Positions 18,541 through 63,346 of a DNA stretch of 64,000 nt are shown piece by piece. The translations under genes were made by a program, and so were the position numbers. The stretch's first letter is position 1. Every line of letters begins with the position of its first letter. The notes beneath the pieces were generated by a model. The model had not been told where the DNA came from. It made no database searches and worked only from the letters and a program-made list of their open reading frames with translations. This stretch comes from Bacillota bacterium (lineage in GTDB: Bacteria; Bacillota; Dethiobacteria; DTU022): the NCBI GenBank assembly GCA_011389985.1, contig JAABTH010000010.1, positions 26,835 through 90,834 on the forward strand. The letters run 5' to 3'.

Positions 18541-18708
18541 GAAAGAGATTTGAAAACCACTGGTAATGATTCTAAGCTTAAGCCTACAGAAAGTGACAGA
18601 AAGATACCAAAATTAACAAATAATTTTAACATATATTCGTATTTATTATTAATATGCCATTTACAGGCGGAGCATAAGACAATCAACTCCGCCCATAAAA
18701 GGTAAATA

Positions 18709-21791: not shown

Positions 21792-21795
21792 TTAT

Positions 21796-43990: not shown

Positions 43991-44007
43991 GCATGATCTA
44001 CTGCTTT

Positions 44008-45339
44008 TTAATATTCCGAGAGAAACTGATTGATCTCCCAGGGATGAATTTCACTGCAGTACGATGACCATTCGGCAGCTTTCTGCGCAAGAAACTGGTC
44101 ATATACATGATTACCCAAAACATCGTGCATAAAATCGCTCTTTTCAAGCTGATGAAGCGCTTCACCAAGATCACGGGGCAATTTTTTGGCATCACCTGTT
44201 GTTTTAATCTTGTCATCTTCGAGCGCATAGTTATTGCCATTTAACGGTTTCGGAGGCATCGTTTTCTTGTCAATTCCCTCGAGACCGGCTTTTAATATCA
44301 CAGCCAGGGCCAGGTATGGATTACAGGTAGGATCGGGGCTGCGCAGCTCTACCCGTGTCCCCACTTTGCTGTGAGCTGCTGGAATACGGATTAATGAAGT
44401 CCTGTTTTGTTTTGACCAGGCTACAAACAGCGGCGCTTCAAAGCCACTTCCCAGGCGCTTGTACGAATTTACAATCGGATTCGTTATAGCGCTGAATTCC
44501 CGTGCATGCTCTAACTGTCCCCCGATAAAATGCAGGGCTGCATCGCTTAAATGATTCTCCTTATTATCATTATTATCATTGTAAAAAGCATTTTGACCAT
44601 CTTTAAAAAGCGACTGGTGTATATGCATGCAGGAGCCGGCATGATCTGAGAATGGTTTCGGCATAAAAGTAGCATGCAGCTTATACTGATGAGCAATCGC
44701 CCGGACCACCGTTTTAAAGGTAATAATCTTATCTGCCGTTGTAAGAGCATCATCATATTTAAAAACTATTTCATACTGCCCGGGAGCATTTTCCTGGTGT
44801 AAAGCCTCAATCTCAAAATCCAATAGTTTCAGATTCTCGGCAATACCGCGAAGCACTTTTTCTTCCTGGTTAATAATCTCATCGCAGTAGCCGTCTTCAT
44901 TCGAGGCAAGAGTTGTTGCCTGTCCCCCTTCATTATTCCGGAAGAGGAAAAATTCAGGTTCGGGCCCCACATTATAACTGTAACCTCTCTCTTCTGCTTC
45001 CTTAAGTGTTTTCTTTAATATACTGCGGGGGCAACCTTCAAAAAAGCTACCGTCCGATTTCTTGACGTCGCAAATCATACGGGCTACGGAATCGTCCTTC
45101 CAGGGTAGAATAGTTAACGTATCCGGGTCGGGCGCCAATTTCATATCACTCTCTTCAACCGTTACAAATCCTTCAACAGAAGAACCGTCAAACATTATCT
45201 CTTCGCGCAGCGCTCTTCCCAACTGCTCCACCGGAATTTCCACGTCTTTCAGCCTGCCCAGAATATCTACAAACTGCAGGCGCACATAGCGGATATCATT
45301 ATCCGCCGCTTCTCTGAGTACATCTTCTTCAGTCTTCAT
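44008..45339 (-). CDS. glnA: Glutamine synthetase type I
   Basis: MFDGSSVEGF, MPKPFSDHAGSCMHIHQSLF, RIPAAHSKVGTRVELRSPDPTCNPYLA. Confidence 0.96.
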   Translation of the reverse strand: MKTEEDVLREAADNDIRYVRLQFVDILGRLKDVEIPVEQLGRALREEIMFDGSSVEGFVTVEESDMKLAPDPDTLTILPWKDDSVARMICDVKKSDGSFFEGCPRSILKKTLKEAEERGYSYNVGPEPEFFLFRNNEGGQATTLASNEDGYCDEIINQEEKVLRGIAENLKLLDFEIEALHQENAPGQYEIVFKYDDALTTADKIITFKTVVRAIAHQYKLHATFMPKPFSDHAGSCMHIHQSLFKDGQNAFYNDNNDNKENHLSDAALHFIGGQLEHAREFSAITNPIVNSYKRLGSGFEAPLFVAWSKQNRTSLIRIPAAHSKVGTRVELRSPDPTCNPYLALAVILKAGLEGIDKKTMPPKPLNGNNYALEDDKIKTTGDAKKLPRDLGEALHQLEKSDFMHDVLGNHVYDQFLAQKAAEWSSYCSEIHPWEINQFLSEY

Positions 45340-45516
45340 AAATTAAAACTACTTCACTCCCAAATCTTGTATTGGTTAAAATTGAAACATAAAACAAACC
45401 ATAGCACACCTCATGGTTAATGTAAAGTTACGCAATATTTTAACTATTGTGGGATTAATTATGAATGCTTCAGTAAGTAAAATAGTATGAGAGATGACAG
45501 GCAATTTCGGGTTTTT

Positions 45517-46059
45517 TTACTCAGCCATTTCAAGCAGCTGTTCAAAAGGCAATTCGATCACTTCTCCCTGCTCAAGCCCCAGCTCGGAAGCCATACCACC
45601 CCGCAGTTCAACAGCAAACTGGGCCGGCTCATTGCTTGAATACCTGATAAGATCGTTATCGGGAGTTCCCGGCGCAGGGGGCTCCATCTCATGTATTGCA
45701 GTAATCATTCCCTCTGCCGTTAAGAAGATTACATCTATCGGAACCAGGCAGTCTTTCATCCAAAAGGTTAATTCGGCCGGAAAAGGTTCAACCGGCGGCA
45801 TTACAAAAAGCATTCCGCCATCTTCGGCAATTTCATCTCTTTTCATTAGTCCTTTAGCTCGCTGCCTGTCATTTAAAGCAAGTTCAAGGGTAAAGGGGCG
45901 TTCTTTTAACTCTATTTTAATGTAATCGTCACCAACTGCCGTTGCAGTAGGCTCTGCGCTCCCTGCGCCGGATTGAGAACCGCAACCGGCAGAAATTGTA
46001 ATTAAGGCAATTAACATAAAGAGAATAATGCTACTTATGAATAGTCGCTTTTTAATCAA
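45517..46059 (-). CDS. DUF192-family lipoprotein
   Basis: Lipobox ITISAGC; DUF192 pattern RQRAKGLMKRDEIAEDGGMLFVMPP...FWMKDCLVPIDVIFL. Confidence 0.88.
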   Translation of the reverse strand: MIKKRLFISSIILFMLIALITISAGCGSQSGAGSAEPTATAVGDDYIKIELKERPFTLELALNDRQRAKGLMKRDEIAEDGGMLFVMPPVEPFPAELTFWMKDCLVPIDVIFLTAEGMITAIHEMEPPAPGTPDNDLIRYSSNEPAQFAVELRGGMASELGLEQGEVIELPFEQLLEMAE

Positions 46060-46198
46060 ATGTTTAATCTCCCTGTCGCTGCAGTTTTAAACAGTTTTTC
46101 GCATTTAAAGCTATTTTACTGGAAATATTATATAATACTGATAATATTAAGCCAATCTCATTTCCCTCAAGCCGGAAGCTTCTGCCTGAAGAGGTCGA

Positions 46199-47722
46199 TC
46201 AATCCTGCCCCGAAAAACGGTAAACATCAGTTTCCGCCCATTTAAAAGATCTTTTTACTGCCTCATCCCAGCCTGAACAGAGGATCTTCCGGGCCTTATC
46301 ATTCATCTGCGGCTCAAAAGCGGCACTCTGTTTCCACCTGCCAGCCAGATCATCAATATTCTCCCAAAACCCTGTGGCCAGCCCGGCCAGGTAAGCAGCG
46401 CCAAGGGCGGTTGTGTCAAATGTGGCCGCCCTGCGAACAGTGGTGCCTGTTATATCAGCCTGAAACTGCAACAACAGGTCCATTACACTTGCTCCCCCGT
46501 CAACCCTTAACTCTGTAATTGGAAGACCGGCCTCCCGATACATCAGGTCAAGTACATCCCTGGTCTGGTAAGCCATCGCTTCAACTACAGCCCTGGCCAG
46601 ATGCGCCTTCGAAGTTCCACCGGTAATGCCAATTATTAAACCACGGGCATAAGGATCCCAGTGGGGTGCTCCAAGCCCGGCAAATGCCGGTACCAGGTAT
46701 ACTCCGCCGTTATCTTCAACCTGCGAAGCCAATTTTTCCAAATCAGATGATTTTTCAATCAGCCCGAGACCGTCGCGAAGCCACTGGACCGCAGCGCCTG
46801 TAATAAAGATGCTGCCTTCAAGAGCATACTTAACTTTATTATCCAGACCCCAGGCTATCGTTGTCAACAAGCCTTGTTTTGATGACACGGCTTTCTCGCC
46901 GGTATTCATGAGAATAAACGACCCGGTTCCATAAGTATTCTTTGTCATGCCGGGGTTATAGCAGGCCTGACCGAACAAGGCAGATTGCTGATCGCCGGCA
47001 ATGCCGCCAATCGGCACAGAACTCCCAAAAAAAATCTCCGGATCAGTCTCGCCGAAGATTGTACTGCTTGCTTTAACTTCAGGCAGCACATTTAGAGGCA
47101 CTTTGAAAAGCTCAAGCAGTTCAGAATCCCACTTAAGGGTACTGATATTATATAAAAGAGTACGCGAAGCATTGGAATAGTCGGTGACAAAAACCCTGCC
47201 GCCGGTAAGCCTGAAGAGCAGGTAACTGTCTACAGTACCACAGGCAAGGCTGCCATCATCTGCTGCGCGGGCTACTTCCGGCAAGTTCTCAAGCGCCCAC
47301 CTGAGCTTTGTCCCTGAAAAATAAGGATCAAGCAGCAGACCCGTTTTAGTGCGCACTGTCTCTTCATATCCTTCTTCTTTAAGCCGGGTACACATCTCGG
47401 CTGTTCGCCGGCACTGCCAGACAATAGCCCTGCTTAAGGGCTTGCCGTTGTTGCGATCCCAGAAAACAATTGTTTCACGCTGATTGGTTATACCTACAGC
47501 CGCCAGATCGGCAGCGCTAATTGATGCTTCCTTAAGAACCTCTTCTACAGCAAAAAGCACGTTATCCCATATTTCAACAGCATCATGCTCAACCCAGCCG
47601 GGCTGGGGATAATACTGTTTGTGCTCTTTATTGATCCGGGCGACTGAACGGCTTTCTTTATCCCAGATAATAGCGGTTGTTCCCGTTGTGCCCTGGTCGA
47701 TTGATAAAATATACTTACTCAT
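46199..47722 (-). CDS. glpK: Glycerol kinase
   Basis: SIDQGTTGTTAIIWD; GITNQRETIVFWDRNNGKPLSRAIVWQCRR; GLGAPHWDPYARG. Confidence 0.95.
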   Translation of the reverse strand: MSKYILSIDQGTTGTTAIIWDKESRSVARINKEHKQYYPQPGWVEHDAVEIWDNVLFAVEEVLKEASISAADLAAVGITNQRETIVFWDRNNGKPLSRAIVWQCRRTAEMCTRLKEEGYEETVRTKTGLLLDPYFSGTKLRWALENLPEVARAADDGSLACGTVDSYLLFRLTGGRVFVTDYSNASRTLLYNISTLKWDSELLELFKVPLNVLPEVKASSTIFGETDPEIFFGSSVPIGGIAGDQQSALFGQACYNPGMTKNTYGTGSFILMNTGEKAVSSKQGLLTTIAWGLDNKVKYALEGSIFITGAAVQWLRDGLGLIEKSSDLEKLASQVEDNGGVYLVPAFAGLGAPHWDPYARGLIIGITGGTSKAHLARAVVEAMAYQTRDVLDLMYREAGLPITELRVDGGASVMDLLLQFQADITGTTVRRAATFDTTALGAAYLAGLATGFWENIDDLAGRWKQSAAFEPQMNDKARKILCSGWDEAVKRSFKWAETDVYRFSGQD

Positions 47723-47740
47723 ATTAACCGCCTTTCACTG

Positions 47741-48721
47741 CTAAAGATAAAAGACCATCATCTGGCCGTCCATTTCACGTTTAACAAGCCCCTGGCTTTC
47801 AAGGTAGCAAATATGAGCTAAGGCTTCACCAGTAGCAAACCACTTCTGCATCAGGGGAAAGTCATCCCAGCTGTCGGCAACCAAATCCCAGGTCATTTCG
47901 GCAGCCACATTAAAGGCATTTGTACTGTTCTTCCTGGAAATAATTTCCTTAACCTCAACAAGTCTCTTAGCATGGTGATCTTTTAGCTGATCAATCCTGC
48001 CCCGGCAATCATAAATGAAACTACGGTGACCTGGCAGCACCAATTCAATATCCATCTTATAAACCCTGTCGAGACTCTTAAAATATTCACCGAGGGGGTT
48101 ACCTTCATCCAGCCAGGTCGAAATATTGGGGGTGATGTCACCAAGAATATGATCACCGGAAAACAGCATTTTATGCTGCCCTTCATAGAGGCAAGTATGA
48201 CCACCAGTATGACCCGGCGTTTGGACGCACCGTAGTTCGTAACCACCGTAATTAATGATATCGCCGTCTTCAACCATGGTAAATTCAACTAAGTTTTCAG
48301 GGCTGTAACGCTGACCGGGATGAGAATCAATAGCACTGCTGACGAGATCAGCTGGAAACCCGTGCTTGCCGGCAAGGGAATAAATCAGCTGCCACAGGTT
48401 TGGATTATTTAATATTTCAGCATCAGGCCGGTTAAAATAGATAATGGCATCATCTTCAGACAGAACCTCAACCAGACCAATGTGGTCTGCATGCAGGTGT
48501 GTGACAAAAAAATCAGTAATTTTAAGATCAAGATTTAGCTGATCAAAAGCATCCAGTAAAGCGCTTTTACATTCTTCCCGGTTCATCCCCGTATCGATAA
48601 CCAGGTTGCGGTCTTTACCCTTGATGATATAAGAGTTTGTCGCTTTAAGCGGATTACGCGGCAGAGGCACTACTGCACGGTACAAATTTTTCCTGATCTC
48701 TTCTACAGCCGACTGCGGCAT
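47741..48721 (-). CDS. MBL-fold metallo-hydrolase
   Basis: THLHADHIGLV motif, TPGHTGGHTCLY, FSGDHILGD. Confidence 0.9.
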   Translation of the reverse strand: MPQSAVEEIRKNLYRAVVPLPRNPLKATNSYIIKGKDRNLVIDTGMNREECKSALLDAFDQLNLDLKITDFFVTHLHADHIGLVEVLSEDDAIIYFNRPDAEILNNPNLWQLIYSLAGKHGFPADLVSSAIDSHPGQRYSPENLVEFTMVEDGDIINYGGYELRCVQTPGHTGGHTCLYEGQHKMLFSGDHILGDITPNISTWLDEGNPLGEYFKSLDRVYKMDIELVLPGHRSFIYDCRGRIDQLKDHHAKRLVEVKEIISRKNSTNAFNVAAEMTWDLVADSWDDFPLMQKWFATGEALAHICYLESQGLVKREMDGQMMVFYL

Positions 48722-48743
48722 CCATACACATCCTTTAAAAATT

Positions 48744-49919
48744 TCACTTAAGATTTTTCTTTGTGGCCGCTGAAAATTCCTCGATAATCTTTTTCTGCAG
48801 GTTCTTATCTTTCAATATTTTAAGGCCTGTTAACGCCATAGCCTCGCCAACAGAAAGCATTACATCATAAGATTCAGCAGTGTTGCACAGAGCAGTAAAT
48901 TCATGTGTATGTCCGGGCACCCACTGGTCTGTAATAGCAACAACAGGATGAATAGAAGGCGTAACCCGGCTCACATTACCCATATCGATAGAACCGCGTC
49001 CCTCCTCGTAGGAAGAATCAATGTTGTAACCCGATTCCTTCAGGCTTTCTTCAAAGAGATCGGCCATAACCCTGTTGCTTACCATGGCATCATAGGGATA
49101 ACCCGACTCTTTTATTTCAAGAATTGTTCCCGTTGCTATCGCCGCCCCCCTGGCACAGGCGATGACCTTCTCTACAACTTCAGCCAGGTAATTACTGTCG
49201 CGCGCCCTGATAATAAAATCGGCTGCCGCCCTATCAGGAACGACATTCGGGGCCAGACCACCCTCTGTGATGATACCATGAACCCGTACATCATCTTTCA
49301 GGTATTGACGCAGGGCATTAATGCCATTAAAGGTTTGAATAACCCCGTCAAGAGCATTCTGACCTTCCCAGGGTTCAGTGGAAGCATGAACGCTGCGTCC
49401 GTGAAATATAAACCGGTAGTCCCGGCAGGCTAAGGAATCAACATTTATGCTGGTTGAACAACCGGGGTGAAACATCATGGCGGCGTCAACATCGTCAAAA
49501 ACTCCGGTCCTGACAAGATCAACCTTTCCGCCTTCATTTTCTTCGTTAGGAGTGCCGATTACCGATATCCTTCCCGGCAGGTTACCAAGGCTTGATGCCA
49601 GAGCCACCCCTGCCGCCACACCGGCTATACCGATCAGATTGTGTCCGCAGCCGTGACCAATTTCGGGCAGGGCATCATATTCTGAGCAAAAGCCCACATG
49701 GAAGCCTTCATCGCCATAACTGGCCATAAAGGCTGTTTTAAGGCCACCGACTCCCCGCCAGACTTTAAAACCTTTCTCCTCGAGGTAGCCGGTCATCAGG
49801 TCAGAAGCAAATATTTCCTGCCCACCCACTTCGGGATTGCTGTGTATTGCCTGGGCCATCTCAAAGAGTTTGCTTTTTTCCTCTGCAATTTTCTGATGAA
49901 TAGCTGCAAATTCATCCAT
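48744..49919 (-). CDS. M20-family amidohydrolase
   Basis: EYDALPEIGHGCGHNLIGIAGV; MMFHPGCSTS; FHGRSVHAST. Confidence 0.92.
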   Translation of the reverse strand: MDEFAAIHQKIAEEKSKLFEMAQAIHSNPEVGGQEIFASDLMTGYLEEKGFKVWRGVGGLKTAFMASYGDEGFHVGFCSEYDALPEIGHGCGHNLIGIAGVAAGVALASSLGNLPGRISVIGTPNEENEGGKVDLVRTGVFDDVDAAMMFHPGCSTSINVDSLACRDYRFIFHGRSVHASTEPWEGQNALDGVIQTFNGINALRQYLKDDVRVHGIITEGGLAPNVVPDRAAADFIIRARDSNYLAEVVEKVIACARGAAIATGTILEIKESGYPYDAMVSNRVMADLFEESLKESGYNIDSSYEEGRGSIDMGNVSRVTPSIHPVVAITDQWVPGHTHEFTALCNTAESYDVMLSVGEAMALTGLKILKDKNLQKKIIEEFSAATKKNLK

Positions 49920-49937
49920 TATTTAAATCACCAACTT

Positions 49938-50960
49938 TCAAATAATAATCTCTTTTAATATGTTACCACAGGGATTATTAACAGCAACCCTTGCCCGGAA
50001 ATTTTTTAAATCAAAAATTACTGAAAAGATTGTTGCGCTGTTATCACTCTGTTCACCAACATGCCGGCAGATAGAATAAGGCCGGTTTTCATGATCGCAT
50101 AAAACCTGCCTGAGCGCAGCAGGTTTATCGCTTGCATCAATTATGCCATTTTCTAATTCCTTCAGCCGCCTGTAGCGGGTTAACGAATGTTCTGAAGCTT
50201 TCTTTGCCAGAGGTTTAAGCCGTTTACTGATATAGTGATTGGTATGAAAAATTATTTTTTCCGCAGGCATGTAGTCAGCATCAGCAGCAGTAGTTTCAAA
50301 GTTGCCCAGCTCACCCCCTGCATGAACCAGGAGATGATTGTAACCTCCCGCCCTGCCGCAAGGTGCAGCTAAACTGCAGGCTTCTTTGATTGATGTGGCT
50401 TCAAGCACCGCCCGCGCTGAAAACATCCTCGGTATACCTTCCTGGTTATCAGTAGAATCAACGCTGTTAACACCCTGGGCCAAACCTGCTTCATTCATCC
50501 CTACCGCCGCCAGAAAAGGCGCCGCCGTTATACTGATAAAGGCAGGCTTATTTACAGGCTGCGCCCAAATAGCTATAACCGCTTCTGAATCGGAGGCATA
50601 CCAGTCTTCATTATGACCAAGCCAAACCCCACTGGCATCCGCCAGGCCGATAGCTGTACAGGCAGAAAAAGATTTAAGATCCAACGCCTCTTCAAGAGCA
50701 TTAAGGAAAAATAAATCGCTGAATTTTATTCCGGATCCATCTGCCATTCCCTGCAGCTCTTCAACCAGGTGCGGGAATTTTTCGCGGGTTGCCTCGAGAT
50801 AATACGCGGGCAATTCCCAAGGTTCTTTCCAGCCATCTGCAGGAAGGTCTTTACGGTAGCCGGCAAGGGCACGTTCGATCAGCGGTCCCGCCGCCCTGCC
50901 TACCTTATATCCGATATCATAATTTGATCCTGCCGCTTTAATCACCATTAAATCAGACAA
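49938..50960 (-). CDS. C45-family acyltransferase/peptidase (Ntn-hydrolase fold)
   Basis: ACTAIGLADASGVWLGHNEDW nucleophile-Cys region; GMNEAGLAQGVNS; GGYNHLLV. Confidence 0.8.
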   Translation of the reverse strand: MSDLMVIKAAGSNYDIGYKVGRAAGPLIERALAGYRKDLPADGWKEPWELPAYYLEATREKFPHLVEELQGMADGSGIKFSDLFFLNALEEALDLKSFSACTAIGLADASGVWLGHNEDWYASDSEAVIAIWAQPVNKPAFISITAAPFLAAVGMNEAGLAQGVNSVDSTDNQEGIPRMFSARAVLEATSIKEACSLAAPCGRAGGYNHLLVHAGGELGNFETTAADADYMPAEKIIFHTNHYISKRLKPLAKKASEHSLTRYRRLKELENGIIDASDKPAALRQVLCDHENRPYSICRHVGEQSDNSATIFSVIFDLKNFRARVAVNNPCGNILKEIII

Positions 50961-50971
50961 TATCAGCGCTC

Positions 50972-53900
50972 CTATTCTTCCCTGATTAAAACATAATCGC
51001 GGTTTAGCTCCTCCTGTGGATCCAGTTTATAGCCTTTATTATTATTTGTATCTTCCACAGAGCTGTAACCTTCTTCTTCGATCGTGATCCGAAAACGATC
51101 CTGGAAGCTTACAAGGCACTCGTAAGTACCATCCCTCCTCACAGGAACCTTTGAGAGAGAGACTCCACCCTCAACTTTGGGGTAACGTTTTATTGCAACC
51201 GCAGGCGGATCAGGCGGACAGTAGCCCTGGAATGTAACCCTGCCTTTAATTACAGCAGCCTGATTAAGAGCAAATAAATGGTAACAGTCTTCACCCGCTT
51301 TAATCTCTAGAGGCCATTCAATCGATTTATAGCGAAGCCCATCAGGCGCTGCAACTGCGTAAAGCAGGTATTTGCCCGCCGGCAGCTCTATAGAAAAGGA
51401 ACCGTCGGGCTTTGTATAAGTTTCTCCGGCGAGAGCTTCAATCAGGGGGTCGCCTACTGGGTCTAATTCCCCGCGAAACAGGCGGATTAAACCTCCCGCA
51501 ATTCTCTCACCAGAAGACTTATCGAGCAGAGATCCATTGAGTGTAACCATATCAGGCTTTTCCAGTTTGTATCTTAAGAAATGATCGGGTATAGTCTCAA
51601 CAACTTCGCGTTTAAAAACCTGGTAATTGTCGGGCAGCTCGTAAAGCGGAAACTGTTCCTGGATTAATAGTTTACTTTTCCCGGCAGACAATATATTAAA
51701 ACTGCCATCCGCCTCAGTGAGCGCAAACAAAACGCCGGTAAGCTGCGGATCTTTATTTTTCCCATCTGCCGTCTTATTTCCCTCAAAACCAGATAGAACA
51801 AGATAACTTCCCTTGCTCTTTTCCCCTAAAACCTGGCCTTCATAATGGACACCCGGAACCGTTTCAACTTCAAAGGCCATCTTTTTAAGGCGTACTGCCG
51901 ATCGGCATTTTTCATCGATCAGAAGCACAGGCGCCAGCCAGTGCAGCCGGTAACGATCACTTTTTATTTCCGCGCTGAAAGCCCAGCCTTCACGCATATC
52001 GAGCTCAATTGGCGGCTGTAACAAGTATGGCAGCCTGAACCTGGAAGCAGCTTCAAGCAGATTTTCAACCGGTGCAGACTGGTTTTCGCAGAGCAGGCAA
52101 AGCGGTTCATCTGCCTCGACCTCAATAAGCCGTAAGCTCTTTGGAACCTGTCCCGGCAGCAGATCGGCTGTCAGATGGATTAACCCCGACATTACCGCTT
52201 TTTCGCTAATATTCTCAGCATCCGGAGCAACCCGATAATAATCGCCCCAGCTGATAATGTTTTCTCCATAAGGGGTGTTAACCTCAATATTGCGGCAGCG
52301 GTAATAATGCTTCGAAGCCTCTTTCGGGTTAACAGCCGTTGAAGCTTTCCGCCACCTATTCTGCGGTATACTTACCGTTATTTTTATCTTTTCATCTGAA
52401 ACCTGATCTTCATTGCCGGGTAACCGGCAATCGATGTTTGCCTCTTGTTGACAGGGGATAAAAGCGGGATCTCCCAGTAAAACCTGCTGATGGATTGCAT
52501 TTGCTGTCCCCCAGCGGTATTTTCGATAGGCACCGGGATTTTTCTGCAGCAGGGTAGCGGCGTAGAGACTGACAAAGTTGCGGGTAGCCTTAACCGCTTC
52601 CCCCACACTTACACCTTTCACCAGAAGCGCTTCCATAAATATGGCATAGATTGAAGTGCTGTACTGCAAATCTTCTATAGTGGCACCACCGACAAAGCAG
52701 AGCGCCCCTTTTTCAACAAATGAAAGCCCGATAACCTGATGTGAATCTACAGCAATCCCTTCCCAATCAAGCCCTTCATTAACAGACAGCCAGTGAGGCA
52801 CCATCGCTACCGTTGAACAGGCTGAAGTATAGGCAACAAGCGGAGCCATGTGCGGCAGATGATCGGCCCGGTTAAGAGTGTGACCGTGAGTATGCAGTCC
52901 TTCAGGGCCTCCATGACCGGTATAGAGAAAAAAGTCGGACCGGCTCAGTTCACTGCCAACCCTGCTGTATTTAGATTCTTTTCCCCGCAGTACTTTTAAC
53001 CTATACTTATTCTCTTCAAGAAGGGGCAGCAGCTGCGCCTCCATTAATGCATCATCGCTGGCAAAAATAATCCCACTTTCAATATGGGGAGTGCTGACCA
53101 CAAGAACATCTTTGCCATCCCTTCCGCTGTGATCAAGGATCTTCCGGTAATGCTTCGTGCTGATCAACTGGGTAGAGAGCCCACCGGTTGTATGCTGCAT
53201 AAGACGTCCTTCACAGAGATCAAAAAAGAGATCGCTGTTAAGCCTGACATGAATATCGCGGACCATTTCTTCAGTCCACGCCGTAATACCCTTCTTCTCT
53301 TCGTAAAAGAAGGGTATTGATGCAGGAGAAGCTAACACAGCCAGAAACCTGGGCTTTAAGTTGTTTTCCCTGACCATTTCGTTAAGATTCTCTTCAATTA
53401 CAGCGGCATCGGGTTGGGCGGCATCAGCATCATAGGGGATTACATTCCTGTAGGTAGAAAGCGTAGTTAAAAGCAAACTTAAGCCTCTTACCCACAGCTT
53501 TCCAAGCGAGTCTCCCCCATTCGAATCAGTGCTTAAATCTGCCGAATTGTATAAAACAAGGTAATCAGATTCAAGGCCGGCATCGTTGAACTCGGCTATA
53601 ATGTCTTTATAGTTTTCCATAATCTTAAACAGGTTTGCCGTCTCTTTGCCTGCGCCTGTTTCCAGCGTTGATTTTTGACCAAACCATAACAGCGGCAGGT
53701 TGCCTGTTAGTGAAATTCCACAGCAGCTTAAATCAGCATCCGTTATAAAATAATAGCCGAGCCGCACAGCCATTGAAGCTGCTTTCAGACAGTCAGATGG
53801 AGATGCGGCTGAGGCTGCGCATATACCACGGGGTTCACCGGCCATGTTTATTATTTCCGGCCAGAAATTACTTTCTGTTACAGAACATGGTCTGGGGCCT

Positions 53901-54121
53901 AAGCCTGCTTTATTTAGCGCTTCTGCGACTTTATCTGTACCGGTGGCATTGATCAGCGTAAAAGGGAGCCTCTCCTTTAAAATCAGCAGTGGCTCAAGTT
54001 CTTTTTCAATGTGCAGCGGATCAATGAAAAAAAGTTCACCCTTTTTACCGCTCAGTATAGCAGCTGCCAGACTTAAGCTTTTTACGTAATCACGATTTGA
54101 AAGCAGGTATATTTCGGTCAT
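50972..54121 (-). CDS. C25 (gingipain-like, clan CD) peptidase-domain protein with carboxypeptidase-regulatory-like repeats
   Basis: 1049 aa; YTGHGGPEGLHTHG (His) and AYTSACSTVAM (Cys) dyad motifs, upstream SDLFFDLCEGRL; C-terminal beta-domains (LNGSLLDKSSGERIAGGLIRLFRG..., IKGRVTFQGY...). No N-terminal signal sequence. Confidence 0.75.
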   Translation of the reverse strand: MTEIYLLSNRDYVKSLSLAAAILSGKKGELFFIDPLHIEKELEPLLILKERLPFTLINATGTDKVAEALNKAGLGPRPCSVTESNFWPEIINMAGEPRGICAASAASPSDCLKAASMAVRLGYYFITDADLSCCGISLTGNLPLLWFGQKSTLETGAGKETANLFKIMENYKDIIAEFNDAGLESDYLVLYNSADLSTDSNGGDSLGKLWVRGLSLLLTTLSTYRNVIPYDADAAQPDAAVIEENLNEMVRENNLKPRFLAVLASPASIPFFYEEKKGITAWTEEMVRDIHVRLNSDLFFDLCEGRLMQHTTGGLSTQLISTKHYRKILDHSGRDGKDVLVVSTPHIESGIIFASDDALMEAQLLPLLEENKYRLKVLRGKESKYSRVGSELSRSDFFLYTGHGGPEGLHTHGHTLNRADHLPHMAPLVAYTSACSTVAMVPHWLSVNEGLDWEGIAVDSHQVIGLSFVEKGALCFVGGATIEDLQYSTSIYAIFMEALLVKGVSVGEAVKATRNFVSLYAATLLQKNPGAYRKYRWGTANAIHQQVLLGDPAFIPCQQEANIDCRLPGNEDQVSDEKIKITVSIPQNRWRKASTAVNPKEASKHYYRCRNIEVNTPYGENIISWGDYYRVAPDAENISEKAVMSGLIHLTADLLPGQVPKSLRLIEVEADEPLCLLCENQSAPVENLLEAASRFRLPYLLQPPIELDMREGWAFSAEIKSDRYRLHWLAPVLLIDEKCRSAVRLKKMAFEVETVPGVHYEGQVLGEKSKGSYLVLSGFEGNKTADGKNKDPQLTGVLFALTEADGSFNILSAGKSKLLIQEQFPLYELPDNYQVFKREVVETIPDHFLRYKLEKPDMVTLNGSLLDKSSGERIAGGLIRLFRGELDPVGDPLIEALAGETYTKPDGSFSIELPAGKYLLYAVAAPDGLRYKSIEWPLEIKAGEDCYHLFALNQAAVIKGRVTFQGYCPPDPPAVAIKRYPKVEGGVSLSKVPVRRDGTYECLVSFQDRFRITIEEEGYSSVEDTNNNKGYKLDPQEELNRDYVLIREE

Positions 54122-54138
54122 AACTGTTCATCTCATTC

Positions 54139-55176
54139 CTAAATAAAGTGACAGGCGCCGAAGTGTTTTGGGGTTATTTCCCTGTAGGCAGGCTCTTCTT
54201 CGCTGCATCGCGGCTGCGCTTCCGGGCAGCGAGGGTGGAACCGGCATCCCAAAGGAATATTAACCGGGTCCGGCGTTTCGCCTTTCAACAACGTTTTACC
54301 TGCCAGCGATACCCTTTTAGGGACAGGTATAACTGAAACAAGCGCTTTTGTATAAGGGTGCAGCGGCGATTTAATCACATCATCTGCAGAGCCGAGCTCA
54401 ACAATTTTACCAAGATACATAATAGCAATACGGTCAGAAATCAACCAGGCCAGTGAAAGGTCATGAGTAATAAACAGATAGCTGATTCCCTTGTTATCCC
54501 GCAGTTCAACCATAAGCTTAAGAATACCGGCCCGGATTGAAAGATCAAGCATAGAAACCGGTTCGTCGGCAACGATAAAGTCTGGATGCAGAACAAGAGC
54601 GCCGGCTATTGCCAACCGCTGCCTCTGCCCTCCGCTTAATTCATGGGGATAACGCATAAAAAGTTCCCGGGGATTACTCAAACCTGCATCACTTAGCGCC
54701 TTCGCCACCCGCTCTTCCTTTTCCCGGCGATCGCGGGTCAGGCGGTTAACCTCAAGCGGTTCAGCAACAGTTGAAAACACAGTCTGGCGCGGATTAAGTG
54801 ATTCAAAAGGATCCTGAAAAATAATCTGCGCTTCCTGGCGAAAGTGACGCAGGCGGGATTTGCTGAATGCATTCATCTCTTCGCCTTTAAATAAAACCTC
54901 GCCGCCTGTAGGCTCAAGCAGGCGCAGAACCGCTTTACCGGCAGTTGTTTTCCCACTGCCCGATTCACCGGCCAAACAGAGTATTTCACCTTTTTTAAGC
55001 TCAAAATCAAGACCGTCAACCGCCCTGACCAAAGAAATTTTACGGCTTACAAGAGATGAAAAAAAGCCTGATCTTACGGCAAAATGAACTTCAAGACCCC
55101 GCACGCTCAGCAAGTTATTAGCTTCATTAAAATCTTTGTTCATTATACCTTCACCCTCCTTTGCAGCAGGTGGCAA
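54139..55176 (-). CDS. Oligopeptide/dipeptide ABC transporter ATPase (DppF/OppF-like)
   Basis: GESGSGKTTAGKAVL, LSGGQRQRLAIAGALVLHPD, C-terminal oligo_HPY (GCRFHPRCPEAQPRC); true start may be internal. Confidence 0.93.
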   Translation of the reverse strand: MPPAAKEGEGIMNKDFNEANNLLSVRGLEVHFAVRSGFFSSLVSRKISLVRAVDGLDFELKKGEILCLAGESGSGKTTAGKAVLRLLEPTGGEVLFKGEEMNAFSKSRLRHFRQEAQIIFQDPFESLNPRQTVFSTVAEPLEVNRLTRDRREKEERVAKALSDAGLSNPRELFMRYPHELSGGQRQRLAIAGALVLHPDFIVADEPVSMLDLSIRAGILKLMVELRDNKGISYLFITHDLSLAWLISDRIAIMYLGKIVELGSADDVIKSPLHPYTKALVSVIPVPKRVSLAGKTLLKGETPDPVNIPLGCRFHPRCPEAQPRCSEEEPAYREITPKHFGACHFI

Positions 55177-56111
55177 AAAGCGCTGTGTCCAGGCGAAATA
55201 TTGGTAAGGGCAGGTACTTCATTACTGCAAAGCCCGTATGCTTCACTGCAGCGTTCATGGAAACGGCATCCGCCCGGAGGGGCGAGCAGGTTTGGCGGAT
55301 TACCCGGAATTGACGCAGCAAGAAAACGCTCTCCTTCTATGTTGGGAAAAGCAGCAATAAGGGCCCGGGTATAAGGGTGGGCAGGATCAGAAAACACTTT
55401 TTCAGTAGGACCATTTTCTACAATCTGCCCTGCATACATTACCGCAACCCGGTCACAGGTTTCCCCTACGACAGAAAGGTCGTGAGTGATTAGTAACATA
55501 CCCATTTCTCGCTCCCGCCGCAAAGTTTCAAGCAGTTGAAGCACCTGCGCCTGCACCATAACATCGAGCGCCGTTGTCGGTTCATCACCAATAATTATTT
55601 TCGGATTGCAGGCGATAGCCATGGCAATCATCACCCGCTGCCTCATGCCGCCACTAAATTCATGGGGATACTCTCTGACCCGGTCGGGGTCAATTTCAAC
55701 CTGATCAAAAAGCTCTGCTGTTCTCTTGCAGGCTTCCTTTTCAGACAACTTATCATGGATACGCACTGCTTCAACAATCTGGGCCCCAACTCTTCGCACC
55801 GGATTTAATGCGTTCATCGCCCCCTGAAAGATAATGGCAATGTCTTTCCAGCGGATATGGCGTAGTTCTTCTTCCGTTGCCCCGGAAATATCTCTTCCTT
55901 CAATCTTTATACTGCCGGCCATAACATGGGCATTTTCGGGTAAAAGTTTAATCAAAGAAAGAGCAGCTGTAGTTTTACCCGAGGCCGATTCGCCAACCAG
56001 GCCAATAGCCTCTCCCCGCTCAAGATGCAAAGAAATATTCTCACAGGCGCGCACATAACCTTCCTTAAGCTTATAGTAAGTGGTAAGATTTTCGACTTCA
56101 AGTAATCTCAC
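55143..56111 (-). CDS. Oligopeptide/dipeptide ABC transporter ATPase (DppD/OppD-like)
   Basis: [53 protein letters not shown]. Confidence 0.93.
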
Positions 56112-57007
56112 TGGTCACGCCTCCTCAATTTAGGATTTAACACTTCGTCCAAGGCATAACCAATAAATGTAAAGCTCAGCACTACCAAGACAACGCAAAT
56201 ACCCGGAGGCAAGAGCCACCACCAGGCTCCGAAAGATACCGCCCCCATCGAAAAGGCAAAGTGGAGCATCATTCCCCAGGTAACCTGGGTCGGATCGCCC
56301 ATACCGAGAAAACTGAGCGTTGTTTCCGATAAAATTGCCACCGCCGCTACAAGGACGGTATTGGCAAAAATCAAGGGGAACACGTTAGGCAAAATATGAT
56401 AAAACATGATATGCGTATCGCCGCTGCCGATAGCGCGCGCCCTTTCAACATAGGGACGCTCCTTAACGCTTAAAGTCTGTGACCGAATTATCCTCGCCGT
56501 TCCGGCCCAACTGGTAATTCCGATCACAAAAATAATATTGCCGAGGCTGGGTCCCAGCAGAGCGGCCATGACCAGCATCAGAGGCAGCCAGGGTATTACA
56601 AGAAACACATCTGTAAAACGCATCAGTAAGGCATCCACCACACGTCCGTAAAAACCGGAAACAATTCCTACTACCGTCCCTATCACCATTGAAATTGCGG
56701 TCGCGGCCAGACCAACCATCAGCGAAACCCTTGAGCCAACTATTACTCCGGCCAGGATGTCTTTACCAAGGTCATCAGTGCCGAGCCAATATTCGGATGT
56801 AGGCGGATGAATAACCTGGGTGACCCCGTCTACTGTCATAATAGTAATATCAACCAGGTAAGGGCCCAAGATAGCCATGAGGGCAAAAATCAGTAAAATA
56901 ACCATACCGATTAAACCCATGCTGTTCTGCCGGTAAATCGACCAGAACGATGAGAGATTCTTTTTCCAGAGAGCGAAAGTATCTTTTTTAACAAGCGCTG
57001 AGTTCAT
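56108..57007 (-). CDS. Oligopeptide/dipeptide ABC transporter permease (DppC-like)
   Basis: HPPTSEYWLGTDDLGKDILAGVIVGSRVSLMVGL; RARAIGSGDTHIMFYHILPNV. Confidence 0.93.
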   Translation of the reverse strand: MNSALVKKDTFALWKKNLSSFWSIYRQNSMGLIGMVILLIFALMAILGPYLVDITIMTVDGVTQVIHPPTSEYWLGTDDLGKDILAGVIVGSRVSLMVGLAATAISMVIGTVVGIVSGFYGRVVDALLMRFTDVFLVIPWLPLMLVMAALLGPSLGNIIFVIGITSWAGTARIIRSQTLSVKERPYVERARAIGSGDTHIMFYHILPNVFPLIFANTVLVAAVAILSETTLSFLGMGDPTQVTWGMMLHFAFSMGAVSFGAWWWLLPPGICVVLVVLSFTFIGYALDEVLNPKLRRRDQ

Positions 57008-57020
57008 TTTCTACGCCCCC

Positions 57021-58100
57021 TTAGGATTTTACCCTGGGATCAAGGTAACGATAGAGTATGTCGGCGCAAAAGTTTGCCCCGATTACAGCAATAGTTATGA
57101 GCAAAAAGAGTCCCTGCAGAACAGGGTAATCGCGGTTTGTGAGAGCTGTATACATTAATCGGCCCAAGCCGGGCCAGGAAAAAACAGTCTCAATTTGAAT
57201 TGTGCCGCCTACAATGAAACCAAGATTGATAGCAATCAAAGTTACAACCGGCAGCATTGCATTTGGCAATGCATGCTTTAAAAGCAGGTTGCGGTTGTTT
57301 ACACCCTTGGCTCTTGCTGTGAGCATGTAATCTTCCCGCATTACTTCAAGCAGTGAACTGCGCATAATCAGAACATACTCCCCGATCAGAATCAGGGTAA
57401 AAGTTATCGTTGGCAAAAACATATAGCGCAGCTGCGATGTTAGTTCGGCCCAGGCCGAAGCGTAAAAGGTTCCGGGCATACCCATTCCCCCCAGGGGAAA
57501 GATCTGCCAGTAAACCGCAAAAATCATCACCATAATAATAGCCACCCAGAATGTTGGCATAGAATAGAGAACAAGCGAAACACTTAAACCCACAATGTCA
57601 ACTCTCGTGCCTCTTTTCCAGGCGAAAATTACACCGAGTAAAACTCCTATGATAATGGAAAGCACTGTAGCAGTGCCGATCAGGAGAACAGTCGCCGGTA
57701 CTCTTTCCATAACAATATCCCAAACAGGCTGGCGGTAGTTAAAAGAAGTGCCCAAATCTCCGGAAAAAAGATCTCGCAGATAAATCCAGAACTGAACCAG
57801 CCGGCTTTCATTAAGACCAAACTGTTCGCGCACCCTTTCCAGTGCATCAGCAGAAATTTTCGGATTACGGATTAACACCCGGATCGGGTCTCCGGGCATA
57901 ATGCGGAACAGGAAAAAATTCATAAAAACAACAATAAATATAGTTATACTCGCCTGAATAAACTTGCGTAAAAGGTAACCACGCATATTCAAAGCCTTTC
58001 CCTCCCGGAAAATGATCATATTATTTTCCGGCTTCTTAAGTGTGTCAGTAAGTGCCGGAGAGGGATCATAAAAGACCCGGCCCCTTATGGAGCCGGGCAC
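57021..58100 (-). CDS. Oligopeptide/dipeptide ABC transporter permease (DppB-like)
   Basis: MPGDPIRVLIRNPKIS; TARAKGVNNRNLLLKHALPNAMLPVVT; likely start at the internal MRGYLLRKF. Confidence 0.92.
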   Translation of the reverse strand: MPGSIRGRVFYDPSPALTDTLKKPENNMIIFREGKALNMRGYLLRKFIQASITIFIVVFMNFFLFRIMPGDPIRVLIRNPKISADALERVREQFGLNESRLVQFWIYLRDLFSGDLGTSFNYRQPVWDIVMERVPATVLLIGTATVLSIIIGVLLGVIFAWKRGTRVDIVGLSVSLVLYSMPTFWVAIIMVMIFAVYWQIFPLGGMGMPGTFYASAWAELTSQLRYMFLPTITFTLILIGEYVLIMRSSLLEVMREDYMLTARAKGVNNRNLLLKHALPNAMLPVVTLIAINLGFIVGGTIQIETVFSWPGLGRLMYTALTNRDYPVLQGLFLLITIAVIGANFCADILYRYLDPRVKS

Positions 58101-58111
58101 ATATTTTTTAT

Positions 58112-59746
58112 TTACTCACCGATAGGTCTCAGTTCTTCATAGGTGTCAATAATATTGGTGAACAGAACCGGGCCTGTCCGCGGATTACGAACCCAACCTT
58201 CATACTTATCTGTCCTGTAAGCCATCAGCTCAGGATCATAAGAAAGCATAATATAGGGAGAATCATTGTAGAAGATGCGCTGCATTTCCAGAATAAGCTC
58301 CCGTCTTTGATCCCTGTCCAGAGTTCGCTGTTGGACCAGGTGCAACTCATCGTAAACCGGGTTCGAGTAGAAGCAGTCACTCCAGGACATAATTTCATCG
58401 GTAGTTGCAACCTTTAAAATCGAAGAAGGATCTACATCAACATACCAACCCCAGATAAACATGTCGAAATCACCGTCATAAATACGGTCGGTCAAAGTTC
58501 CCTCGTCAATAACCGACACGGTGATCTCTATTCCTACTTCGGCCAGCATATCTTTAATCATTGATGCCATTTTCTGGTTATCCGGCGATTCATTACGAAT
58601 AAGCAGTGTAAACGAAAGCGGGTCGCCCTCAGGGCTTACCCTGATGCCATCTGCGCCAAGGGTATAGCCGGCAGCCTCAAGAATATCAACTGCCATCTGT
58701 GGGTCGTAAGCACGAAAATCTTCGCCAAGATCAAGGTGCCAGAATTCAAACAGCGGCGGTACCAGTGTAGAACCGACTTCGCCATAACCCATTAAAGCTA
58801 CATCAATCATCTCCTGGCGATCCAGGGCATACTCGATTGCAATACGTACTTCACGGTCTAGCAGAATCGGGTTACCCTTGGACGCTTCATCTTCCCAAAC
58901 GTTAAAAGATAGCTCCGTAAAGGAAGGGGAATCGGCATCAAGAGCAACTATATCGGGGTCGCCAACCTCCTGGAGAGCCTTAAACTGAGCTCCGGGAACA
59001 TCGCCAATAACATCAAGTTCACCTTGTTTCAGCGCTTCAACCATCATATCAGTATTGGCATAGATGATAATTATAACCTCATCAATTGCCGGTCTGCCTT
59101 TAAAATAGTTTTCGTTGACAGCCATCCTGGTAAATTCACCCTTACGGTGTTCAATTACCTGGAAAGGTCCGGTGCCGACAGGGTTTTCATTGGTGAATTC
59201 GCCCTCAGCATCGGCAGGGTCAATTTCCGACCAGATATGCTTGGGGAAAATTGGGACAAGAATCTGCGGCATCCAGGCGATCGGCTCGTCGGTCTTGATT
59301 GTTACCGTATTTTCATCTACCACTTCTATTTCTTCCATCGAAGCTACATAATCATAGAAATAGCCAAGTTCATTGTCACGAATGTATTCAAAAGTAAACT
59401 TCACATCTTCTGCGGTAAAAGGTTCACCGTCATGCCAGGTAACCCCTTCTTCCAGGTAGAATGTCCAAAGCATTCCACTTTCATCAACATCCCACGACTT
59501 GGCCAGTTTGGGGGTAACAACAAGATCTTCGTCCCAGCCCATCAGGTAGTTGTAATTAAGGTTCATCACTTCATAAGCCTGAACCGACCATATAACCATG
59601 GGATTAAGACTTTCAATCTCTCGCATATAACCAATTCTTAAGACATTACGCTCATCCTGGGCCTCCTCGCCTCCACAACCGGCGATAAGCAGGCTGAAAG
59701 CCAATAAAATTACCAACATAAGAGCCAGCTTATTAACTTTACGCAA
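58112..59746 (-). CDS. ABC transporter substrate-binding lipoprotein, family 5 (DppA/OppA-like)
   Basis: TTG start at 59746 after AAAGGAGG; lipobox LLIAGC; SBP_bac_5 features (WTFYLEEGVTWHDGEPFTAEDVKFTFEY). Confidence 0.93.
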   Translation of the reverse strand: MRKVNKLALMLVILLAFSLLIAGCGGEEAQDERNVLRIGYMREIESLNPMVIWSVQAYEVMNLNYNYLMGWDEDLVVTPKLAKSWDVDESGMLWTFYLEEGVTWHDGEPFTAEDVKFTFEYIRDNELGYFYDYVASMEEIEVVDENTVTIKTDEPIAWMPQILVPIFPKHIWSEIDPADAEGEFTNENPVGTGPFQVIEHRKGEFTRMAVNENYFKGRPAIDEVIIIIYANTDMMVEALKQGELDVIGDVPGAQFKALQEVGDPDIVALDADSPSFTELSFNVWEDEASKGNPILLDREVRIAIEYALDRQEMIDVALMGYGEVGSTLVPPLFEFWHLDLGEDFRAYDPQMAVDILEAAGYTLGADGIRVSPEGDPLSFTLLIRNESPDNQKMASMIKDMLAEVGIEITVSVIDEGTLTDRIYDGDFDMFIWGWYVDVDPSSILKVATTDEIMSWSDCFYSNPVYDELHLVQQRTLDRDQRRELILEMQRIFYNDSPYIMLSYDPELMAYRTDKYEGWVRNPRTGPVLFTNIIDTYEELRPIGE

Positions 59747-59818
59747 AACGGAAACCTCCTTTAATAGTTTAATCCCCTCTGGGTAAAACAAAATGATGCG
59801 TTCTGCACCTCCTTCTTT

Positions 59819-61246
59819 TTAATTCCGCTTTTCTTCCTCTGCTTCTTTGAGTATTGACATAATCTCCCTGCTGACAGGATCACTTACAACGGTGCCGGGA
59901 TGCTCAGCCAAAATCTGGTCAACCTTAGCTTTGGCCTCTTCGCGAACCGTGGGACGACCCGAGCTGCGCCATTCTTCAAAGGGAGATTCATTACCCAGTT
60001 TACCTGAATATAGCTCACCCCGGCGCATAAAATCTCTCGTATGCACCTGGGCCAGGTAATTGCCGCCATCCATGACCGCTCTGACGACATCAGCGCCTAT
60101 AGATTCTTCGCTTACATCAATGCCCTGTTGCCTGTGAAATACCATACTGTAAATTTCATCATCAATTACCAACTGTTCTGCACTTGCCAGCAGTCCCGCA
60201 TTTAACGACCCCATCCCTGAAACAAAAGTTGCCCGCGCCATCGATGGATAAAGGGCATTCAAAGAGCGTTCGTACCCGGATTGAATATCAGGCACCGCCG
60301 CCCCGGTATCCATACCGTAAACACCTGAAGGCAAACCGTAGTTTCGGGCTATCTGGGCTACGCAGGCGCCGGAAAATCCTAAATCAGGGTCTCTGCCGCT
60401 AACACAACCACTGCGCATATTTGCTGCTGCCAGCCTGCAGGTATAGACCAACGGTGTGCGGCGGTTAACCAGGCGAGCCAGGGTAATGAAAGCCAGCTGC
60501 TCTGCATTCTGCTGCACCAAACCACCGGCAAGCGTAACAGGCGCTGTCAGGCCGCGAGTTGGGCAGGGCAGCATGGTTATAGGAAGTCCTGTCCGGGCGC
60601 TTTCGATTATGGCATCTGTAATATCGGCCGGAAAGTTTAAGGGGCTTAAAGGTGATATCGATAAGGTCCCCATCGGTTTTGCCACCAGCTTTTCAAGACT
60701 ACCGCGAACTGCTGCAGCAATACGAATCAGGTAACGTATCTCCCAGGTATCGGAAGCCGTACCTATATCAACCGGTTTTTGTGTATTTTGAAGAGCATAA
60801 GCGGTCATTGCCAGGGAGGCAACCTCTTCGGGCAAATCAGTTGGCCGCAGGCTTGGCACAACCATGTGCAGGTTCGTCAATTTATCGCTAATTCTGATAT
60901 AATCTATGAGATCAGCTACAAGAGCTTCGCGGATTATATCATCTTTGTGATCTAAAAGCATAGAAACTGAACCAAAATTGTGGGCATAAGTGCGGGGAGC
61001 TTCCGTAAGGGGAAGAACAATGCTCTCATCAACACCATAGAGAGTAACCGGTTCGGGGTCAGTCAAACATTCTTCAACCAATTTTGAAGGAAACCGCAAT
61101 CTTTTGCCGTCTTCCAGGCAGCCTGCAGAAAGCAGTATTTCACGTGCCTCTTTTCCTTCGATAACGGCTCCTGTATCTGCCAGTATTTTTAAAGTCTGAT
61201 CATGAATTAACTGTAAATCGGCCACCGATAAAGGTTCAAATATCAA
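59819..61246 (-). CDS. Trimethylamine methyltransferase (MttB) family protein, non-pyrrolysine
   Basis: 475 aa MttB-like (YAHNFGSVSMLLD, GNYLAQVHTRDFMRRGELYSGKLGNESPFEEW); continuous frame with no internal amber codon. Confidence 0.9.
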   Translation of the reverse strand: MIFEPLSVADLQLIHDQTLKILADTGAVIEGKEAREILLSAGCLEDGKRLRFPSKLVEECLTDPEPVTLYGVDESIVLPLTEAPRTYAHNFGSVSMLLDHKDDIIREALVADLIDYIRISDKLTNLHMVVPSLRPTDLPEEVASLAMTAYALQNTQKPVDIGTASDTWEIRYLIRIAAAVRGSLEKLVAKPMGTLSISPLSPLNFPADITDAIIESARTGLPITMLPCPTRGLTAPVTLAGGLVQQNAEQLAFITLARLVNRRTPLVYTCRLAAANMRSGCVSGRDPDLGFSGACVAQIARNYGLPSGVYGMDTGAAVPDIQSGYERSLNALYPSMARATFVSGMGSLNAGLLASAEQLVIDDEIYSMVFHRQQGIDVSEESIGADVVRAVMDGGNYLAQVHTRDFMRRGELYSGKLGNESPFEEWRSSGRPTVREEAKAKVDQILAEHPGTVVSDPVSREIMSILKEAEEEKRN

Positions 61247-61278
61247 TTAGACTTCTCTCCTTTCGCTACAACAGTTAT

Positions 61279-61929
61279 TTATGACAGATTGAGCATAGCC
61301 CTTACTTTCTTCACTCCGGCAATAGCATCGGCAGCATAGGCATCAGCACCAATCTTGATTGCCCATTCTTCCGACAGAGGAGCTCCGCCAACGATAACCT
61401 TAACCTTATCTCGCAAGCCTTTTTCGGCTAACATATCAATTATTTTTTTCTGTTCCTGTATCGTTGTTGTCATCAGGGCTGAAATACCGAGCACCTGGGC
61501 ATTATTATCCTCGACAGAACGGACAAATTCTGCAGAAGGCACATCTACGCCAAGATCGTAGATCTCCATACCAGCCGCTTTCATCATCATAATTACAATA
61601 TCTTTGCCAATAGAATGTAGATCACCTTTAACCGTACCAATTACGCATTTAACGATATTTTCCTGTTTACCATCCTTGTCTTTAGCCATATGTGGTTCAA
61701 GGTAATCAATAGCGCCGCTCATCGCTTCAGCAGCAAGCATCATATCGGGCAAAAAGTATTCACCCTCCTCAAATTTTTGCCCAACCTGATCAAGTCCAAC
61801 AGTAAGACCGTCCGTAATAAGCTCAAGTGGGGCAATCCCTGAATCAAGTCCTTCCTTAACAAGCGATAATGTTTCGTCCCTTTTTCCTTCGAGCACCGCA
61901 TAGGCTATATTCTGCAGTATTGTCGGCAA
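61279..61929 (-). CDS. Corrinoid (B12-binding) methyltransferase protein, MttC-like
   Basis: GTVKGDLHSIGKDIVIMMMKAAGMEIYDLGVDVP (DxHxxG) plus VKVIVGGAPLSEEWAIKIGADAYAADA. Confidence 0.94.
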   Translation of the reverse strand: MPTILQNIAYAVLEGKRDETLSLVKEGLDSGIAPLELITDGLTVGLDQVGQKFEEGEYFLPDMMLAAEAMSGAIDYLEPHMAKDKDGKQENIVKCVIGTVKGDLHSIGKDIVIMMMKAAGMEIYDLGVDVPSAEFVRSVEDNNAQVLGISALMTTTIQEQKKIIDMLAEKGLRDKVKVIVGGAPLSEEWAIKIGADAYAADAIAGVKKVRAMLNLS

Positions 61930-62353
61930 ATTAATTCCTCCTTATTTATCTCTTCACCGGTGCTATACCGATTAACCCAAGCTATTTTAAGCATAAAAAA
62001 ACAGCCGGCTATTTTACCGAATCGAAACAAAAGTACTTTTATCCTAAACGGCACCCACTGAATATAACGAGAATGATTCTCAGAATAAATCATATAAGTT
62101 CATTAAATATTTTTGCTAATTATACCATATTTTTTTATTATTATATCTATTGTTTAAAATAATTTTTTCCAAACCGTCCGGTTGGCAAACCGGCTGCTGT
62201 CTTAAAAATTACAATAGCATAGTGTAAAGTTATTGTCAGAATCAGCAGGTGAATAACTTAAAGATGTAGAAAGAATATTTTAGAAATAAAACTCAATTTT
62301 TGTGGTATAATAAGTTTGAAAAACTTGAGTTGATTCAAAGGGAGATGAGATAA

Positions 62354-62875
62354 GTGCCTGATATTAAACGTGCATTACTGGTAACGTTAATAATCACCCT
62401 TACCCTGTTTATGTTTGGTTGTCTTGAAAAAGCTTCAAATGAGGGTAACTTAACGGATAATGATCAAGTAATCGAGGAAGCTGCAGCTACCCAGCCCCTT
62501 CAGGTAGAAGTACCTGACGGTAAAACAGACCGCCTGCCAGGAAGTCTTAAATGGGACAGCATCACCATTTATGCAGAAGGCATTGATTTTATCAGTGATC
62601 AGCCCGAAGGTCTGCTTACACAGGTGTCCTCAACCCAAACAATTACAGTTGACTCAACAACCACAACCGAGACTACTGAAACTGCAGTTGTCACTGAAGA
62701 GAGTGAAACGGCAAATCAGGGTTCAGGTGGCTCAACCACTTCAATTCACAGTTCCAGCGGCGGCATAACAACTGATATTACTGTTGATGGATCAATAAAA
62801 GTAACTGAAAGCACCACCAGCACCAGCGGCAGCCAGAGCACCACGAACTGGTGGGAAGTGGACGCAACAAATTAA
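62354..62875 (+). CDS. Small Ser/Thr-rich lipoprotein of unknown function
   Basis: GTG start after GGGAGATGAGATAA; lipobox LFMFGC; low-complexity TTTTETTETAVVTEESET; C-term NWWEVDATN. Confidence 0.8.
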   Translation: MPDIKRALLVTLIITLTLFMFGCLEKASNEGNLTDNDQVIEEAAATQPLQVEVPDGKTDRLPGSLKWDSITIYAEGIDFISDQPEGLLTQVSSTQTITVDSTTTTETTETAVVTEESETANQGSGGSTTSIHSSSGGITTDITVDGSIKVTESTTSTSGSQSTTNWWEVDATN

Positions 62876-62940
62876 AGTTTTTAATAATAATGCAGGCAAA
62901 GATATTTGGAGTAATTTACTGGCAGGAGGTGAAGCGATTG

Positions 62941-63282: not shown

Positions 63283-63314
63283 CTCAACCAGTCGCATATT
63301 TAAATTATAAACCA

Positions 63315-63346
63315 GGGCATGGTGAAAACCATGCCCCTTTTTATTT
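63315..63346 (+). terminator. Intrinsic terminator downstream of the lipoprotein pair
   Basis: GGGCATGGT-gaaa-ACCATGCCC followed by CTTTTTATTT; overlaps the 3' end of larE. Confidence 0.85.

Follow-up and report, generated by a model that had tools for sequence, protein, structure and literature searches.

The closest known systems to the locus studied here are MtgB/MtgC/MtgA of Desulfitobacterium, for glycine betaine, and MtpB, MtcB and MtyB with MtqC/MtqA/RamQ of Eubacterium limosum. They share with it an MttB-superfamily enzyme, an adjoining corrinoid protein, a methyl-tetrahydrofolate (THF) transferase and a RamA-type activator. MttB genes are numerous in anaerobes, E. limosum having 42 genes of the superfamily (PMC8604678), yet few substrates are known and all of them are small amines. 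The pyrrolysine (Pyl)-dependent MttB of Methanosarcina is also related, sharing the fold family (187 bits to 7xcm), Gly at position 110 and a corrinoid partner. Peptide importers of the Dpp/Opp/App type resemble the importer found here in having the full set of a solute-binding protein (SBP), permeases B and C and ATPases D and F within one operon.

The window, the 64,000-nucleotide stretch of DNA that was analysed, extends to the end of a 90.8-kb contig in a 1.9-Mb draft genome of an uncultured anaerobic bacterium. In contrast to the Mtg and E. limosum systems, its MttB belongs to a separate clade, has Asp at the Pyl position and has lost the predicted ligand residues of MtgB, and the candidate operon also has the five genes of a peptide-type importer and genes for a C25-like peptidase (C25L) and for amide hydrolases. 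The importer differs from those of the Dpp/Opp/App type in being tied to one MttB clade and to C25L in every cassette observed. All parts are members of known families, and the locus is not a new category of system. On balance, we are inclined to see in positions 48744-61929 a transferable cassette for the catabolism of a compound that is bulky, N-methylated and probably peptide-like or N-acylated.

Layout and integrity of the gene run

Twelve minus-strand genes span positions 46199-61929. The initial annotation had counted eleven; the genes it listed and their positions agree with the open reading frames and with Pfam/NCBIfam family scans. The run begins with a cognate corrinoid protein of the MtbC/MttC/MtgC type (61279-61929; TIGR02370, 221 bits, above the cut-off; PF02310 and PF02607), which has a DLHSIG cobalt-ligand motif at residue 103, and a non-Pyl MttB-superfamily methyltransferase (59819-61246; assigned by PF06253, tree and active-site columns). 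The importer genes encode a family-5 solute-binding lipoprotein (58112-59791; PF00496, 304 bits; lipobox Cys39), Dpp/Opp-type permeases B (57021-57986; PF00528 and PF19300) and C (56108-57007; PF00528 and PF12911), and Dpp/Opp-type ATPases D (55143-56111) and F (54139-55176), both with PF00005 and PF08352. They are followed by genes for the C25-like cysteine peptidase (50972-54121; PF01364, above the cut-off), a C45 (AAT-type) Ntn hydrolase/acyltransferase (49938-50960; NF040521, 214 versus 85 bits; PF03417), an M20 amidohydrolase/dipeptidase (48744-49919; TIGR01891, above the cut-off), an MBL-fold hydrolase (47741-48721) and the glycerol kinase GlpK (46199-47722; TIGR01311, 706 bits).

Neighbouring genes are 11-32 bp apart or overlap, the corrinoid gene lying 32 bp upstream of mttB and the upstream genes being 27-32 bp apart. 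The earlier description of short gaps or overlaps therefore holds, except for 125 bp between the SBP gene and permease B, whose start was moved from 58100 to the ATG at 57986 because its orthologues are mostly 323 aa. A stem-loop scan placed a 10-bp stem-loop in this gap (58075-58098, minus strand), which may give differential expression or act as a partial terminator. Promoters or terminators that split the run into unrelated units had also been considered in the initial annotation. Matches in a scan for such internal signals somewhat exceed those in shuffles (40 versus 24 and 27 versus 18.5) and give no argument for a split, apart from the stem-loop 3′ of the SBP gene.

All 12 genes are conserved in a congener (G001), and pairwise dN/dS values of 0.03-0.20 against it show strong purifying selection on each; the run is thus real coding sequence, far from chance. 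Synonymous divergence from the congener is ∼0.5-0.6 in the C25L and C45 genes versus ∼0.95-1.6 in the rest of the run; recombination or a difference in codon use are options for the lower values. The leader upstream of the corrinoid gene (62040-61930) is conserved with the same congener and contains a weak stem and, after it, a stretch of T residues (62020-62005), a possible attenuator. An Rfam search gave no match to a riboswitch or other RNA near the operon.

Conservation and boundaries of the cassette

C25L was found in eight of the 100 genomes searched, including our own, and every one of them is from the same family. The gene order corrinoid-MttB-SBP-B-C-D-F-C25L is kept in G001, G003, G013 and G022 where contigs allow, and in G009, where the cassette is divided between two contigs; G016 and G021 have truncated versions. 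MttB orthologues (67-87% identity) are present in six of the 43 family genomes (own included), and all six also encode C25L; a neighbourhood search anchored on these two proteins, as proposed in the initial annotation, thus did find co-occurrence. Orthologous cassettes occupy at least three chromosomal sites in at least six genera of the family. The cassette is nevertheless rare, occurring in ∼10 genomes among those searched. No match to C25L was obtained on plasmids in PLSDB, and for a defence role PADLOC gave no match to C25L, C45 or M20.

The accompanying hydrolases vary by lineage, although all are from amide-hydrolase families. The C45 and M20 genes come next in the cassettes of G001, G003 and G013, while the G016 cassette has M20 and an ArgE/DapE-type deacylase. 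Because the cassettes of G009 and G021 are without C45 and M20, these two enzymes are not indispensable. Both G016 and G022 have two C25L copies. An MttB match in G003 (G003:C12:13717-15201) lies within a 1170-aa open frame, possibly a fusion protein.

The MBL and glpK genes had been included in the locus by the initial annotation. In nine genomes (G004, G007, G025, G027, G028, G030, G033, G035 and G036), however, the MBL-glpK pair directly abuts homologues of the genes that flank the run in the window, and the cassette is absent. GlpK orthologues are present in 35 of the 43 family genomes, and among these genomes glpK is neither confined to those that bear the cassette nor always found with it: in G016 and G022 the cassette is elsewhere, and glpK is at another site adjoining an unrelated hydrolase gene. 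In the GlpK tree as in the MBL tree, occupied sites are scattered among empty ones, a pattern that needs three to four changes. From the empty sites, the spread of GlpK and the trees it follows that the unit consists of ten genes, 48744-61929. On the empty sites and both trees we reject GlpK and the MBL protein as members; glpK is certainly a host gene, part of the family core, and the MBL gene, whose product has the metal motifs, is probably one as well. No regulatory sequence common to the cassette leader and the MBL leader of the empty sites was found. At the site in G015 the SBP and M20 genes alone remain, which looks like decay.

A clade-specific link between MttB, importer and C25L

The window MttB matches PF06253 over its full length (residues 3-462; 237 bits, cut-off 25). 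It is not of the Pyl type, having no in-frame amber codon or Pyl at position 334; the Pyl column is occupied by Asp313 in the window protein, by Asp in its five close orthologues and by Gly in a more distant clade member, G143_4. Compared with the Methanosarcina enzyme it therefore lacks pyrrolysine, with Asp313 for Pyl334, and it has Ser (Gly by alignment) for Tyr364. The betaine ligands of MtgB predicted from a docking model are Y94, N199, R309 and H345 (PMC6855144), and the alignment columns of these residues contain G, S, G and S in the window MttB. Side-chain volumes were summed over six columns predicted to form the pocket (GSGDGG in the window MttB), and of the 67 MttBs compared, those of the window clade, seven in number, had exactly the seven lowest totals; the columns come from alignment with the MtgB docking model (PMC6855144) and not from a structure, and the H345 column shifts with the alignment. 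Side chains this small suggest that the pocket is opened and the donor bulkier. A second MttB clade, common to the family and G143 (G016:C156, G022:C225, G022:C188 and G143:C26; L118, L115, L114 and L105), has similarly small pocket residues (GCAAGS/GCNAGA).

We also compared the locus with genomes of other classes. G143, with 40 MttB matches in 3.9 Mb, is from a different and small class, of which the searched set contains four genomes. One of its contigs, of 334 kb, encodes a PucR-type regulator, three MttBs, the SBP-B-C-D-F set, C25L (41% identical to the window C25L), a fourth MttB and an M19 dipeptidase. We built a tree from 69 MttB proteins, including 33 full-length MttBs of G143, and in it the window MttB falls in a clade separate from MtgB. 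Only one of the 33 paralogues, G143_4, which is the MttB after C25L, joins this clade, with support of 100/100 and only 34% identity to the window MttB. G283, from a further class, has the importer and the beginning of C25L at a contig end. That one particular MttB subclade should recur beside this importer and C25L in lineages so far apart is not easily put down to chance, even where genomes are rich in MttB. The linkage of demethylase, Dpp-type importer and amide hydrolases noticed initially thus proved to be a conserved cassette, present in family genomes and in G143.

The importer set is complete, with SBP_bac_5, two BPD_transp_1 and two oligo_HPY domain proteins. The nearest solved relatives of the SBP are AppA and other peptide or nickel binders. 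Ligands of family-5 SBPs also include nickel, opines, sugars and heme, and the sequence of the window SBP resembles peptide, nickel and sugar binders alike.

C25L is a protein of 1049 aa without a signal peptide and with prealbumin/CarboxypepD_reg-like domains at its C-terminus. Its Pfam C25 score is 30.2 against a gathering threshold of 23 bits, nine of nine relatives match the family (E ≤ 0.1), and a His403/Cys435 dyad is invariant in 10 sequences. It resembles the gingipain-like peptidases of family C25 in this dyad and in a Pfam domain above the cut-off, and differs from them in lacking a signal peptide and in having its own N-terminal domain and a beta-domain tail. No solved structural relative was detectable in the PDB, and two AlphaFold models, from four-row alignments each, had a pLDDT of 40; the predicted fold assignment rests on the Pfam matches and the dyad. 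The C45 nucleophile, Cys101, follows a predicted processing site and is kept in four orthologues. The M20 protein has the metal motifs. Its closest solved relatives are HmrA and the Xaa-Arg dipeptidase PM20D2 (3ram, 263 bits; 7yh4, 212 bits), from which it differs in being linked to demethylation. This likeness would fit dipeptides ending in a cationic residue and serves as a lead only.

Proposed pathway and alternative explanations

In the pathway that we propose from these protein families, the SBP lipoprotein and the Dpp-type ABC importer would take the compound in. The signal-less C25L, together with C45 and M20, would then cut amide bonds in the cytoplasm and expose a methylated amine; in sister cassettes an M19 dipeptidase or an ArgE/DapE deacylase could be the cleaving enzyme. 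The MttB-clade enzyme would transfer a methyl group to the adjoining corrinoid protein, a step that follows the chemistry of the family, with this compound as presumed substrate. The order of cleavage and demethylation, like co-transcription of the genes, is what we infer. As had been noted for the window initially, no MtgA-type transferase or RamA-type activator is among the genes of 44000-64000. The genome has a single methyl-THF:corrinoid methyltransferase of the MtgA/AcsE type, on contig C16 beside an MtgB-like MttB (own_C16a), and a single RACo/RamA-type activase, on contig C42. With both on other contigs, their absence from the locus is not a gap; the MtqA and RamQ clusters of E. limosum are likewise separate from the substrate-specific MttB genes (PMC8604678). 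The transferase would pass the methyl group to tetrahydrofolate and the activase would reactivate the corrinoid protein, the two genes being observed and their wiring to the cassette presumed.

One alternative is that this MttB takes methyl groups from a small, free quaternary amine, the importer carrying a small compound or simple conjugate and C25L having a maturation or regulatory role. The characterised non-Pyl MttB enzymes all use small amines (PMC8604678), two cassettes are without C45 and M20, and the diversity of family-5 SBP ligands would accommodate such a compound. We nevertheless consider this unlikely, though worth keeping in view, since small residues stand across the clade where MtgB has its predicted betaine ligands, and since an MtgB-like enzyme (own_C16a) is already encoded in the genome, next to the methyl-THF transferase. 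In E. limosum, moreover, MtyB and MtcB adjoin an MFS transporter and no peptide importer (PMC8604678).

An ordinary oligopeptide-scavenging operon could also have come to lie by coincidence beside an MttB pair in genomes rich in MttB: there are 19 homologues in our 1.9 Mb and 40 in the 3.9 Mb of G143, and a second Dpp-like importer lies among MttBs on contig C12 of our genome. But the neighbour is always of the same MttB subclade (one of 33 full-length paralogues in the other class), the upstream genes are spaced by only 27-32 bp, and cassettes at different chromosomal sites retain one gene order, which makes coincidence improbable. The proposal that a glycerol-bearing betaine is the substrate, with GlpK phosphorylating the freed glycerol, drew on the gap of only 18 bp between the MBL gene and glpK downstream of it, a linkage that recurs in G001, G003, G009 and G021. 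As glpK belongs to the host locus, this glyceryl-betaine idea falls: given the empty sites with the same flanks in nine genomes and glpK in 35 of 43, its location elsewhere in G016 and G022, and the interspersed trees, we give it almost no credence.

Within the preferred reading of a cassette for a bulky N-methylated compound, a more specific version is possible but doubtful. This would be an anaerobic pathway dedicated to living on the methyl groups of N-methylated peptides, in which the new MttB clade is supplied by the importer, by a caspase-like peptidase inside the cell and by dipeptidases. The opened MttB pocket would take bulky donors, possibly a methylated residue within a short peptide; peptides that are released as proteins decay and carry an N-terminal trimethyl group or trimethyl-lysine are example sources. 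Should the substrate prove to be a methylated peptide, the methyl groups of proteins would have to be added to the sources known to support anaerobic methylotrophy. With its fixed gene context, distinct active-site signature and defined importer, the clade offers a good way into a new class of substrates, and through the SBP the substrate can be tested directly. The initial view of the system as undescribed agrees with the open-access literature searched, in which we found no paper linking these parts and no description of this MttB clade, of the C25-like partner in the cytoplasm or of the parts in this fixed combination.

The same genome contains further genes for methylated compounds. In-frame TAG codons are present in one MttB gene on C2, in two on C9 and in one on C17, four in all, and in a gene for the dimethylamine methyltransferase MtbB (TIGR02368, 519 bits; from the set of contigs C2/C9/C17/C20), and PylS is also present (346 bits). 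Judged by these genes, the organism is a predicted pyrrolysine-using methylamine degrader. Many methyltransferases were found in the genome, which is ∼97% complete, and no match to the CdhC/AcsB domain (PF03598). On contig C12 (1-32000), five MttBs lie with a histidine ammonia-lyase, a proline-racemase-family gene, the second Dpp-like importer and, by eye, a glutamate-formiminotransferase-like gene, a cluster that looks like one for demethylation of amino-acid betaines. Genomes of the CSSed165cm series originate from a Siberian soda lake (PMC6704655). In the window itself, positions 16366-23139 encode, by eye, 2-oxoacid:ferredoxin oxidoreductase subunits, together with an aldehyde:ferredoxin oxidoreductase (19992-21791) and a class-III aminotransferase (21796-23139); these are putative amino-acid fermentation genes.
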